From assembly GCA_027068765.1 (NCBI GenBank), contig JAMOMC010000033.1:1-47908 (forward strand): 47,908 bases of DNA. The letters run 5' to 3'. A program made the position numbers and the translations under genes. This DNA is from Campylobacterales bacterium (GTDB lineage Bacteria; Campylobacterota; Campylobacteria; Campylobacterales; QNZT01). The notes beneath the pieces are model-generated. The model did not search any database and was not told the origin of the DNA. It saw only the letters and a program-made list of their open reading frames with translations. Below, one piece after another: positions 20,704-32,997 of this stretch; position 1 is the stretch's first letter; every line of letters begins with the position of its first letter.

Positions 20704-20779
20704 TGGCAGGGCAAGAGGGATTCGAACCCCCAGCCATCGGATTTGGAATCCGGCGCTCTACCATTGGAGCTATTGCCCT
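20704..20779 (-). tRNA. trnW: tRNA-Trp (CCA anticodon)
   Basis: Read leftward, a complete cloverleaf begins AGGGCAA, with D-arm GCTC...GAGC, anticodon stem CCGGA/TCCG around loop TTCCAAA (anticodon CCA), and the T arm with GGTTCGAATCC. The acceptor ends TTGCCCT-G with CCA encoded (76 nt). It sits between rpmG and secE, a common place for tRNA-Trp. Confidence 0.97.
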
Positions 20780-20798
20780 AAAAATCATAGTTAAAAAA

Positions 20799-20957
20799 CT
20801 ACGACTTTAATTTAACTTCTTTATGAAGTGTTCTCTTCTTGAGTCTTGAACTATACTTCATCAACTCAACTTTTTCAGTTTGTGTTCTTGTATTTTTAGT
20901 AGTTGTATAATTTATATCACCACTCTCAACACACTTTAAACCGATTTTAATTCTCAT
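20799..20957 (-). CDS. rpmG: 50S ribosomal protein L33
   Basis: This 52-residue basic protein begins [20 protein letters not shown] and continues with the family's [21 protein letters not shown] in one run. It is a small structural protein near the ribosomal E site. Many L33 proteins carry two C-x-x-C zinc pairs; here only one cysteine (residue 9) remains, so it is the zinc-free form. The Shine-Dalgarno GAGGA precedes the ATG by seven bases. It lies 50 bases downstream of tuf and 20 bases before tRNA-Trp. Confidence 0.95.
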
Positions 20958-20978
20958 AATAAATCCTCAAAATTGTTC

Positions 20979-20994
20979 AAGGGATAAATCCCTT
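20979..20994 (-). terminator. Small hairpin after tuf
   Basis: AAGGGA (20979-20984) and TCCCTT (20989-20994) pair around TAAA, about 14 bases beyond the tuf stop. No U-run follows and rpmG starts only about 20 bases later, so it is more likely a weak terminator or an mRNA-end stabiliser than a full stop. Confidence 0.35.
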
Positions 20995-21007
20995 AAACCT
21001 TTATAAT

Positions 21008-22207
21008 TTATGCTTGGATTGATGCAACAACACCTGCACCAACTGTTCTACCACCCTCACGGATTGCAAATCTAGTACCATCTTCCATTGCGATTGGAGC
21101 GATAAGCTCAACTGTAATTTTTACATTATCACCAGGCATTACCATCTCAGTTCCCTCAGGAAGTGTGATAGAACCCGTAACATCTGTAGTTCTTACATAA
21201 AACTGTGGTCTATAGTTATTAAAAAATGGTGTATGTCGTCCACCCTCTTCTTTACTTAATACATAAATCTCAGCTGTAAACTTTGTATGAGGAGTAATTG
21301 AACCTTTTTTACAAAGCACCATACCTCTCTCAATATCTTCTTTTTTAGTACCACGAAGTAAAATTCCACAGTTATCCCCTGCTTCACCCATATCCATCTC
21401 TTTTCTAAACATCTCAACACCAGTTACAGTTGTTGTTTGAGTATCTTTAATACCTACGATTTCAATCTCTTCACCAACTTTAACTGTTCCTCTTTCGATT
21501 CTACCAGTTGCAACAGTTCCACGACCTGAAATTGAGAAAACATCTTCAACAGGCATTAAGAAATCTTTATCAGTCTCTCTAACTGGAGTTGGAATAAAAC
21601 TATCAACAGTATCCATAAGTGTCATAATTTTTTCACCCCACTCACCAATAGAACCACCTTTTGCCTCTTCTAATGCTTTAAGAGCCGAACCAGCAGTAAT
21701 AGGAGTATCATCGCCTGGAAATTCATAAGCATCTAAAAGCTCTCTTATCTCCATCTCAACTAACTCTAATAACTCTTCATCATCAACCATATCTTGCTTA
21801 TTCATAAAAACAACAATGTAAGGAACACCAACTTGTTTTGAAAGTAAGATATGCTCTCTAGTTTGAGGCATAGGACCATCAGCTGCTGAAACAACTAAGA
21901 TAGCACCATCCATTTGTGCAGCACCAGTAATCATGTTTTTAACATAATCAGCATGTCCTGGACAATCAACATGAGCATAATGTCTTTTCTCTGTCTCATA
22001 CTCAATATGAGAAGTAGCTATTGTAATACCTCTCTCTTTCTCTTCAGGAGCATTATCGATATTATCATAATCTTTTAGCTCTGCAAGACCTTTTGTTGCT
22101 AAAACTGCTGAAATTGCAGCTGTCAATGTTGTTTTACCATGATCGACATGACCGATAGTACCTATATTTACGTGTGGCTTATTTCTTTCGAATTTTTCCT
22201 TTGCCAT
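21008..22207 (-). CDS. tuf: Elongation factor Tu
   Basis: EF-Tu (399 residues) brings aminoacyl-tRNA to the ribosome as a GTP complex. All GTPase motifs are intact: [10 protein letters not shown] at 19-28, DCPGHADY at about 81 and NKQD at about 136, with the C-terminal domains complete (GRTVGAGVV near the end). The Shine-Dalgarno GGAGG precedes the ATG by five bases. It follows the tRNA-Thr/Tyr/Gly/Thr cluster, as tufB does in E. coli. The leader contains two mutually exclusive hairpins. Confidence 0.98.
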
Positions 22208-22238
22208 TGTATCCTCCGTCTTTAAATTTTAAATTTTT

Positions 22239-22271
22239 AACTTTTTGTTAAAAGTTTTGGCCAAAACTTTT
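22239..22271 (-). promoter_or_regulatory. Alternative hairpins between tRNA-Thr and tuf
   Basis: Bases 22250-22260 and 22261-22271 form a perfect 22-base palindrome (AAAAGTTTTGG/CCAAAACTTTT). The arm 22250-22256 can instead pair with 22239-22245 around loop 22246-22249. The two folds exclude each other, as in an attenuator or tRNA-processing switch. Function is inferred only from geometry and position. Confidence 0.4.
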
Positions 22272-22284
22272 TATATACTTTCTC

Positions 22285-22359
<75 letters not shown>

Positions 22360-22472
22360 AAAACTCATCTTACTCATCTCAACAATTACATATCACAATA
22401 GATTTAAACAAAAAAGCAGATTGCAAACAATATATACAATAATATAATTTACAAAACAGCTCCCAGTTTAAA

Positions 22473-22549
22473 TGGAGCGGGAAACCGGACTCGAACCGGC
22501 GACCCTCAGCTTGGAAGGCTGACGCTCTAGCCAACTGAGCTATTCCCGC
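22473..22549 (-). tRNA. trnG: tRNA-Gly (TCC anticodon)
   Basis: Read leftward, acceptor GCGGGAA pairs with TTCCCGC, the anticodon stem TCAGC/GCTGA closes loop CTTCCAA (anticodon UCC), the T arm holds GGTTCGAGTCC, and CCA is encoded (77 nt). It corresponds in position to glyT of the E. coli tufB operon. Confidence 0.97.
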
Positions 22550-22599
22550 ATCTTTTTTAGTCTATCTAAAAAAATATAAATTTTTTTAGAGGACTGAAG

Positions 22600-22685
22600 T
22601 GGTGGTGAGTGAAGGATTCGAACCTTCGAAGGTAAAAACCAGCAGATTTACAGTCTGCCCTCTTTGGCCGCTTGAGTAACTCACC
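22600..22685 (-). tRNA. trnY: tRNA-Tyr (GTA anticodon)
   Basis: This is an 86-nt class II tRNA read leftward, with acceptor GGTGAGT/ACTCACC, anticodon stem CAGA/TCTG around a loop with GTA, a long variable arm (GCTGGTTTTTACCTTC region), T arm GGTTCGAATCC, and encoded CCA. The long variable arm and the anticodon agree on tyrosine. Confidence 0.97.
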
Positions 22686-22730
22686 TTGGCTATCCACTTG
22701 AACATTTCTGGTCAAACACTGTACAAAAAA

Positions 22731-22807
<77 letters not shown>

Positions 22808-30872: not shown

Positions 30873-32000
30873 CTAGCCTCTTATTTTCTTTATAAATGCA
30901 CCTTTTTCAACTCTTTTTGCTTTTGACAAATCAACTCTAGCTCCCGCATCACTAAAATACGGTCCTACAAGTAGTAATTCAACTGATCTTCCTCTAACAA
31001 TCGCCTCTTTAGTCTCATAATTTAAACCACTCTCTTCAAGACTTTGTATATATCTAGTACTTTTAACTCCAAGATCATTATCATAAAGAGTTGCAATTTG
31101 AATATAATATGTACCATTATCAGCTTGTGAAGTTTGATTATAATTTGTTTCCACTATAGCTGGAACTGATTGTGTATACTGCTCGTCGTATGAGTTATCT
31201 TGATATGATATAGAGTCAACTAAATCATCATCATACTGAGCTTCAAACTCATCAACTTCTCTATCTCCTCCAAACACTAAGCCAAGTCCAAGACCAGCCA
31301 TAATATCAAGATCACTATTTGAAAATTTCTTTAATGCTTTTGTATCTAGTATGAGATTTAAAGTATCACTTATCTTATATTTTAATCCGCCACCAAGATT
31401 TGCAAATCCTCCAGACTCAGCAGCATATGCTTCATCTGATATAATCTCATAACCTAATCCTGCATACACAAAAGGAAATAATGCGTTTTCATTTGCAATC
31501 TCATAAAGACCATTTACATATACTCTATCTGCTGGAGTATCTTTAAGATTTAAAGATGATTTTGATGATGAAACTACCGACTTTTTCTCATATCTTGCAT
31601 CTTTACTTACCGCATATTCATCATTTCTATCTATATTATAATCAGCTGCAAATACATGCTCATACCCTAACTGAATAAAACTACTTTTTGTTATACACTT
31701 ATTAAATCTAACTCCCACAAGTGGTGAATCACCTAATGCTCCATCATCTTCTGTAAAATTTTGCCCACCTATAACATCTGCACTATTTAAACATCCACTT
31801 GTCTCAACTGGAGCTTTAGAAGTAATCGTAGCTGGCACAAATGCTCTCTCAGGAATAAATCTAGGCTCTGGTGTATACTGTTCGACTTCTTGTACTTTGG
31901 CATCATAAGTATCTTGTGCTTCATAGTCTATTAAAGCACCTACATCTGGTCCTGCGAATAATACAGATGTTGTTACTGCTAAAGCTATTATCTTTTTCAT
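30873..32000 (-). CDS. Outer-membrane beta-barrel protein with C-terminal SPOR domain
   Basis: The 375-residue protein has a signal peptide (MKKIIALAVTTSVLFAG). From about 85 to 245 it shows alternating strands with aromatic ends (VGVRFNKCITKSSFIQLGYE, FVYAGLGYEI, GLGLGLVFGG), as in small OmpA-like barrels. After an acidic linker, the last 75 residues (TYYIQIATLYDND to the end) look like a SPOR domain, which binds denuded peptidoglycan strands at division sites. Barrel plus SPOR would tie the outer membrane to the cell wall. Two cysteines (CLNS and NKCI) could form a disulfide. It is single-gene, with a 331-base gap upstream. Confidence 0.7.
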   Translation of the reverse strand: MKKIIALAVTTSVLFAGPDVGALIDYEAQDTYDAKVQEVEQYTPEPRFIPERAFVPATITSKAPVETSGCLNSADVIGGQNFTEDDGALGDSPLVGVRFNKCITKSSFIQLGYEHVFAADYNIDRNDEYAVSKDARYEKKSVVSSSKSSLNLKDTPADRVYVNGLYEIANENALFPFVYAGLGYEIISDEAYAAESGGFANLGGGLKYKISDTLNLILDTKALKKFSNSDLDIMAGLGLGLVFGGDREVDEFEAQYDDDLVDSISYQDNSYDEQYTQSVPAIVETNYNQTSQADNGTYYIQIATLYDNDLGVKSTRYIQSLEESGLNYETKEAIVRGRSVELLLVGPYFSDAGARVDLSKAKRVEKGAFIKKIRG

Positions 32001-32136
32001 TTACTCTCCTAATTTTTCAATTTTATTATTAACTCTAGCAAGTAACAGTTTAAAAAGTCAAGAATATTTACCAAAAAAAACAATAATTAACTTTATGTGT
32101 TACAAAAATTAGCAAAGATCAAAATTAAATTTTATC

Positions 32137-32145
32137 TGGTATAAT
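32137..32145 (+). promoter_or_regulatory. Extended -10 promoter of the RNA upstream of queC
   Basis: TGG-TATAAT is a perfect extended -10 (TATAAT at 32140-32145). It places the transcription start at about 32151, at the first base of the closing stem of the predicted RNA. A convincing -35 is not visible. Confidence 0.65.
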
Positions 32146-32149
32146 GGCG

Positions 32150-32293
32150 AAAGGAAGTGTGAAAAATGGTGAAGATGCTTAAAGGAGGCGAAAGCATCTC
32201 CACCGGACTGTGATGAATGACATTATCTAATGTGTCAGTTGCATTTTGGCAACAGTGTAATTATAATCAAATCGGACTAAATTTATCCTTTTT
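32150..32293 (+). ncRNA. Candidate structured RNA upstream of queC (unassigned)
   Basis: The 331-base gap 32001-32331 holds this element and little else. A helix of 13 pairs with one mismatch (32168-32180 with 32192-32204) displays an 11-base loop with GGAGG. A second hairpin (32220-32224/32229-32233) and a third (32238-32242/32249-32253) follow. The ends AAAGGA (32150-32155) and TCCTTT (32286-32291) can pair and run into a U-run. It matches no RNA I know; SRP, 6S, tmRNA, RNase P and cobalamin or preQ1 elements do not fit. Either a free small RNA or a queC leader is possible. Confidence 0.55.
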
Positions 32294-32331
32294 AATTATA
32301 ATTAATATATATTTTTAAAAAAAGGTTAATT

Positions 32332-32997
32332 TTGAAAAAAGCTGTGTCTATTATAAGCGGAGGTATGGACTCTGCTTTAAGCTCCTATATAGCTAAGTTT
32401 GAAGATGGTTATGAGATTATTGCTTTGCACTTTAACTATGGGCAAAAGACAGAAAAAAAAGAATTAGAAAGTTTTAAAAAGATAGCAAGAAGCTTAAACT
32501 CTTTGAAATTAGTTGAGTTAGACTTGCATTTTATTAAAGAAATAGGAGGCTCTGCTTTAACAGATAAAAGTATAGAAGTTCCAAAAAGTGGAATTTTACC
32601 AGGCGTGCCTGTGACTTATGTACCTTTTAGGAATGGTATCTTTTTATCTATAGCTACAGCTTTAGCCGAAAAAGAAGGAGCTGAAGCCATCTATATAGGT
32701 GTTGTTGAAGAGGATAGTAGCGGTTATCCAGATTGTAGTGATAGTTTTATAAAAAAACTAAATGAAGCGATAGATGAAGGTACAAAGAGTGAAACTAAGA
32801 TAGAGCTAAAAACTCCCTTAGTAAAACTAAAAAAAGAGCAGATTGTAAAAAAAGCAAAAGAGCTTAATGTGCCACTAGAGTATACTTGGAGCTGTTATGA
32901 GCGTGAAGATAAACCTTGTGGAGTTTGTGATAGTTGCAGACTTAGAGCGAAGGGGTTTGAAATAGCAGGCTTAGTTGACTCTATCTATCTGCAATAA
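32332..32997 (+). CDS. queC: 7-cyano-7-deazaguanine synthase QueC
   Basis: QueC converts 7-carboxy-7-deazaguanine to preQ0 with ATP and ammonia, on the way to the tRNA base queuosine. The 221 residues carry the PP-loop SGGMDSALS at 9-17, the family segment [24 protein letters not shown], and the zinc site [15 protein letters not shown] near the end. The start is TTG at 32332, six bases after AAAGG; no ATG is near. Other queuosine genes (queD, queE) are absent from the window. It lies directly downstream of the structured RNA and converges on a thioredoxin-like gene with a 17-base overlap. Confidence 0.95.

Follow-up and report, generated by a model that had tools for sequence, protein, structure and literature searches.

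What is encoded in the gap upstream of queC in this Campylobacterales genome, and from which strand is it read? In the window analysed here, a stretch of 47,908 nt, the segment 32101-32331 contains strong inverted repeats, which the original prediction read as an undescribed structured RNA of about 145 nt on the plus strand. The hairpins exist, including one with a 13-pair stem, and no described family accounts for them: a scan of the segment against Rfam 15 gave nothing at the gathering score and only chance-level matches at a relaxed E-value. Here, we found that the signals flanking these hairpins point to a different transcript, shorter and with both ends elsewhere.

Strand, ends and distribution of the RNA gene

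The small RNA (sRNA) gene almost certainly lies on the minus strand. It is intergenic, about 92 nt long (32253→32162), and reads away from queC (Table 1). Folding of the minus-strand transcript gave -28.2 kcal/mol with a z-score of -5.75, and none of 200 shuffles was as good, whereas the plus strand (32149-32297) reached -37.5 kcal/mol with a z-score of -2.8, only moderately beyond its shuffles.

Table 1. Positions of the predicted features in the window
Feature	Position	Strand	Evidence
sRNA gene, ~92 nt, predicted +1 ~32253	32162..32253	-	fold z -5.75; homologues in 15 genomes of the family
Operator palindrome AAGGATAAATTTAGTCCGATT, over the -35/-10 spacer, centre ~-28	32270..32290	-	conserved in homologues; motif also precedes iscS, rrf2 and desulfoferrodoxin
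-10 box TATAAT	32260..32265	-	fixed distance to 5' hairpin across homologues
5' hairpin GUUGC/GCAAC, starts at +1	32238..32253	-	covarying pairs among homologues
Second hairpin UGACA/UGUCA	32218..32237	-	fold; kept in genera g1 and g5, others not clear
Linker UUCAUCACAGUCC, single-stranded, possible second seed	32205..32217	-	almost unchanged across genera g1 and g5
Terminator stem-loop, 13 pairs	32168..32204	-	compensatory changes at most positions
Terminator-loop segment UUUCGCCUCCUUUA	32180..32193	-	holds anti-Shine-Dalgarno CCUCCUUU (32181-32188)
Terminator T-run AUUUUU	32162..32167	-	sequence; present in most homologues
queC, divergent neighbour outside the sRNA gene	32332..32997	+	PF06508, E 2.3e-74

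In the minus reading, relatives share a conserved block in which a AAAGGATAAATTTAGTCCTATT-like operator is followed after a few bases by TATNNT and, 6 nt further on, by the 5' hairpin. The distance between this hairpin and the -10 box is constant in nearly all homologues, which matches the expectation for a start site. A T-run directly follows the last hairpin on its 3' side in most members and, since the upstream gene on the minus side is the divergent queC, a minus-strand terminator must end a transcript that began in the gap. The alignment of homologues provides a further criterion. At positions 0-11 of the terminator stem we counted 10 G-U cells and no A-C cell; our stem finder counts G-U as a pair and tolerates one mismatch, so that A-C could have shown up. 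Because G-U on the minus strand is A-C on the plus strand, this pattern argues that the minus strand is transcribed.

The operator, the -10 box, the T-run and the G-U pattern thus all indicate the strand opposite to the one originally predicted. The proposed search for homologues with covarying helices did yield both, but for a minus-strand RNA. The loop described as GGAGG is the complement of the real one, which on the evidently transcribed strand of the 13-pair stem reads UCGCCUCCUUU, and the presumed U-run ATCCTTTTT is the edge of the minus-strand promoter's operator AAAAAGGATAAATTTAGTCC, conserved as DNA, into which the supposed pairing ends also partly fall. The case shows how an sRNA can escape notice when its hairpin is assigned to the wrong strand. 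By sequence, this one has what is expected of a trans-acting sRNA: its own promoter and intrinsic terminator, an intergenic position, conservation and an exposed seed.

How widely is the gene distributed? The genome itself is assembled in 211 contigs, and our family sample comprised 22 genomes. Homologues that possess the operator, the promoter, the covarying stem and the invariant core of the loop were found in 15 of them (G000, G003, G007, G008, G009, G010 (twice), G011, G013, G014, G015 and G017-G021), and in a 16th, G002, the gene is interrupted by a contig end. No full match was found in G001, G004, G005 and G006 of the same family, where the gene is seemingly lacking; in G012 a contig breaks at queC, and G016 has a completeness of 65%. 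The two queC-sRNA loci of G010 (C30 and C48; L056 and L011) stem from a bin with 6% contamination and reflect a duplicated locus or else the mixing of genomes in the bin. Beyond the family, one homologue was recovered in G042 (family f22; L347, E 1e-5), with operator, -10, the loop UUUUACCUCCUUUG and a 12-pair stem. Among named relatives, exact matches to the core pattern fell in Campylobacterales MAGs, of which two carry the label Sulfurospirillum sp. Outside the family, model R2 matched mostly operators alone or by chance, the phylum-wide covariance-model match in G405 (L045) was rejected since it lies inside a coding frame, and the AT-rich BLAST matches, among those listed (L015-L018), reflect only short stretches that are AT-rich or resemble the operator. 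A scan of five loci, homologous or related, gave nothing in Rfam. Elsewhere in the window, positions 20707-22806 of the minus strand hold five ordinary tRNA genes, four of them clustered.

The terminator loop and its possible targets

Which part of the RNA does the work? The stretch CCUCCUUU in the terminator loop is invariant in all 15 aligned homologues and identical to the anti-Shine-Dalgarno (anti-SD) core of the 16S rRNA. While the surrounding stem changes freely, the loop core stays fixed, the pattern expected of a pairing seed. A decoy ribosome site, as first suggested for GGAGG, is thereby turned into its opposite, a loop able to pair with ribosome-binding sites. We consider it probable, on the basis of this conservation and of precedent, that the loop pairs with Shine-Dalgarno (SD) regions.

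Indeed, the same loop occurs in a different RNA. Where TAAAGGAGGCGAAA recurs exactly elsewhere than in the gene, the copies proved to be no mRNA targets but to belong to a second candidate sRNA, found in four g5 genomes (L149, L150, L132 and L173), which carries the loop TTTCGCCTCCTTT(A/G) in its 5' hairpin. In three of the four it lies between a ybgC-like thioesterase gene and dnaE, and three of the four contain further CCTCC (CCUCC) motifs; the RNA of L150 ends in CTCCCGGAGGCTTTTTT. The promoter of the second RNA is without an Rrf2-type operator, and upstream of its -10 a direct repeat TAACACTT-3-TAACACTT with PhoB/OmpR-like spacing is present in three of the four. We argue that a 14-nt loop common to two otherwise different RNAs is the working part.

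The strongest competing view keeps the minus-strand transcript and its operator and assigns it another action, in which the loop would be structural and the RNA would use the linker as seed, sequester an RNA that bears GGAGG or bind a protein. The near invariance of the linker in g1 and g5 speaks for it, and so do the target statistics, which give anti-SD action no support: over about 1.18 Mb of the genome, scanned in stretches for targets as for operators, genes with iron-binding motifs were not better matched by predicted pairing (p 0.22), a comparison that rests on a crude proxy, covers about half of the genome and uses single-genome prediction, which is weak. petB, petC, ccoO and ccoP are among the best loop matches, a post hoc observation that we do not count as evidence; petB was rejected as a conserved target as its pairing extent varies between species. 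Against this view, the linker UUCAUCACAGUCC is absent from the homologues of genera g3, g4 and g6, which retain the loop, so that no other part is common to all homologues, and it is the loop that recurs in the second sRNA. We therefore regard another mode of action as unlikely, and pairing of the anti-SD loop with SD regions as the better account.

Operator, predicted regulon and neighbouring genes

What controls the sRNA? The palindrome over its promoter follows the motif TAGGACnAAWTTnAGTCCTA, which is commoner in the family than its reversed control and which we assign, with high though not full confidence, to the Rrf2 type. Close variants lie about 20-80 bp upstream of iscS in 17 of the 18 genomes in which the region before iscS could be read, the sole exception (L211) being a divergent copy with 59% identity. 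We built a palindromic position weight matrix on the sRNA and iscS sites (consensus TAGGACTAAATTAGTCCTA) and ran it over the same 1.18 Mb. The top sites preceded a DUF255 gene, a gene for a small Cys-rich protein, a DUF4149 gene, this sRNA, iscS and desulfoferrodoxin (PF01880), and a lower-scoring site was located 37 bp upstream of the Rrf2 gene. Above the cut-off we counted 17 sites, against 4-27 with column-permuted matrices, and sites before the sRNA and iscS are of the sort on which the matrix was trained; thus, only the top sites mean much. The palindrome is common to iscS and rrf2, with the motif upstream of rrf2 in G000, G007 and others.

The Rrf2 protein itself (PF02082, 1.5e-29) has as best solved relative a BadM/Rrf2 regulator, followed by IscR. 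Three conserved cysteines (FEC-x6-C-x7-C) lie in the region where cluster-binding Rrf2 proteins have theirs, with a spacing of x6 and x7 compared to x5 and x5 in E. coli IscR. We infer from these data that this core Rrf2 protein would bind the operator, that the Fe-S cluster would be the signal and that binding would repress, as suggested by the position of the operator over the -35/-10 spacer. As read from the shared operator, iscS, rrf2, desulfoferrodoxin and the sRNA form a predicted Fe-S-homeostasis regulon and, as in IscR/Rrf2 regulons, a [Fe-S] Rrf2 protein would control isc genes and itself.

Could the operator belong to another regulator, for instance an NsrR-like, NO-sensing Rrf2 paralogue instead of an IscR-like protein? 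Some genomes contain two or three Rrf2 genes, and the motif is also found before genes for DUF1858/DUF2249 proteins and tpx. We nevertheless think this improbable, somewhat more so than another action of the RNA, as in several genomes the motif precedes the near-universal Rrf2 gene itself, and as iscS is the most constant motif-bearing member. An IscR-like Rrf2 protein is hence our preferred regulator.

Several further sites of the motif were observed. The operator precedes small genes without assigned function (L264 1101-1420, L092, L093 and L063), candidate regulon members that include the Cys-rich protein (ECGCFK...), which has no Pfam match. Operator-like sites adjoin a gene for a thiol-peroxidase-like protein (MATVxxKGNE...) in several Campylobacterales families (L352, L356 and L358), which suggests that the Rrf2-type regulon may reach oxidative stress and predate the family of the sRNA. 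At the DUF4149 locus (L031 1411-1515 in G000 C19, and L022 in G001), an operator-like palindrome with a divergent -10 accompanies a conserved G-rich hairpin segment, GCAGAGGGGACGGTGCGG, without an Rfam match, possibly another operator-controlled RNA. In L348 (G043 C40, ~150-300), operator and -10 stand just 5' of what by eye appears to be a small SRP RNA.

Does the sRNA belong to one of its neighbours instead? The gene is divergent from queC in genera g1, g3, g4 and g6 and adjoins other genes in g5, so that queC counts as a neighbour rather than as a partner, in agreement with the original preference for an RNA independent of queC over a riboswitch leader. A queC riboswitch or leader responding to preQ0/preQ1 or a corrinoid would read in the direction of queC and lie upstream of it in all members, an arrangement that the homologues do not have. 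This bears on the plus-strand RNA as a whole, whether taken as an independent sRNA or as a queC leader with a GGAGG loop. Its extended -10, TGGTATAATG (~32138-32147), is present and suitably placed, this strand also folds (z -2.8), and a looped G-G-A could be a CsrA-type site; yet the promoter is missing from relatives, and the G-U pattern, T-run and promoter of the other strand favour a minus-strand gene, which leaves a plus-strand RNA very little room. Equally remote is a leader or attenuator of the outer-membrane protein gene at 30873-32000, which lies on the same strand 162 bp downstream of the sRNA and has a similar counterpart in G007 (L083), since that gene is preceded by its own promoter-like TTGACT-18-TAGAGT and the next gene is a different, convergent one in G003, genus g5 and G042.

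Proposed mechanism and relation to known small RNAs

We propose, as the likely though not secure reading of the locus, a trans-acting minus-strand sRNA of about 92 nt that is repressed by an IscR-like [Fe-S] Rrf2 protein and blocks the SD sequences of target mRNAs. Cluster-loaded Rrf2 would sit on the palindrome over the -35/-10 spacer and keep the sRNA promoter silent. When Fe-S clusters are lacking or damaged, by iron shortage or oxidants, the repressor would be released, which would derepress iscS, rrf2, desulfoferrodoxin and the sRNA together and let the sRNA accumulate. The stem-displayed anti-SD loop UUUCGCCUCCUUUA, perhaps aided by the linker UUCAUCACAGUC, would then occupy SD regions and block translation of the targets. 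By this route a shortage of iron-sulfur clusters would probably lead the sRNA to damp down translation; iron sparing as its role is a tentative suggestion.

Is there precedent for such an RNA? In Staphylococcus, the Fur-repressed iron-status sRNA IsrR uses several single-stranded C-rich motifs to pair with SD regions (PMC9410917). The RNA described here would share with IsrR the link to iron (proposed), SD pairing (predicted) and an own promoter and terminator, while differing by the lack of homology, by a single anti-SD loop inside the terminator and by the Rrf2-type operator. RepG of Helicobacter pylori, a member of this phylum, pairs through a pyrimidine-rich loop of its terminator with G-repeats in the tlpB leader (PMC8295292); the comparison made here covers the architecture, the genomic location is another, and no Rrf2 operator for RepG was found in the text consulted. 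FsrA of B. subtilis, RyhB, PrrF and MrsI are low-iron sRNAs, described as being under Fur or other iron regulators and as sometimes chaperone-dependent, and FsrA pairs with SD regions via a C-rich motif (PMC9410917); their sequences are unrelated to the present one. The SD-pairing step is thus supported by the invariant loop together with the precedent of RepG, IsrR and FsrA. Judged by sequence features, the anatomy appears to work like that of FsrA, IsrR or RepG, no described family tested includes this sRNA, and the predicted class of its regulator sets it apart from the known iron sRNAs.

In a literature search that covered few subscription papers, we found no trans-acting sRNA under direct IscR-type repression and, for free-living Campylobacterota, no Rrf2 regulon or Fe-S-linked sRNA. 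We speculate, tentatively, that this Fe-S-stress sRNA would do the job of RyhB, derepressed via a [Fe-S] Rrf2 protein and not Fur and silencing through a copy of the 16S anti-SD, and that its loop is a module which also serves in a second, differently controlled sRNA. If true, this would provide a specific example of ribosomal anti-SD mimicry by a conserved sRNA loop, and the first sRNA found in our literature search under an IscR-type operator. Free-living Campylobacterota are major autotrophs of vents and sediments, and for these organisms it would establish a circuit of regulator, operator and sRNA.
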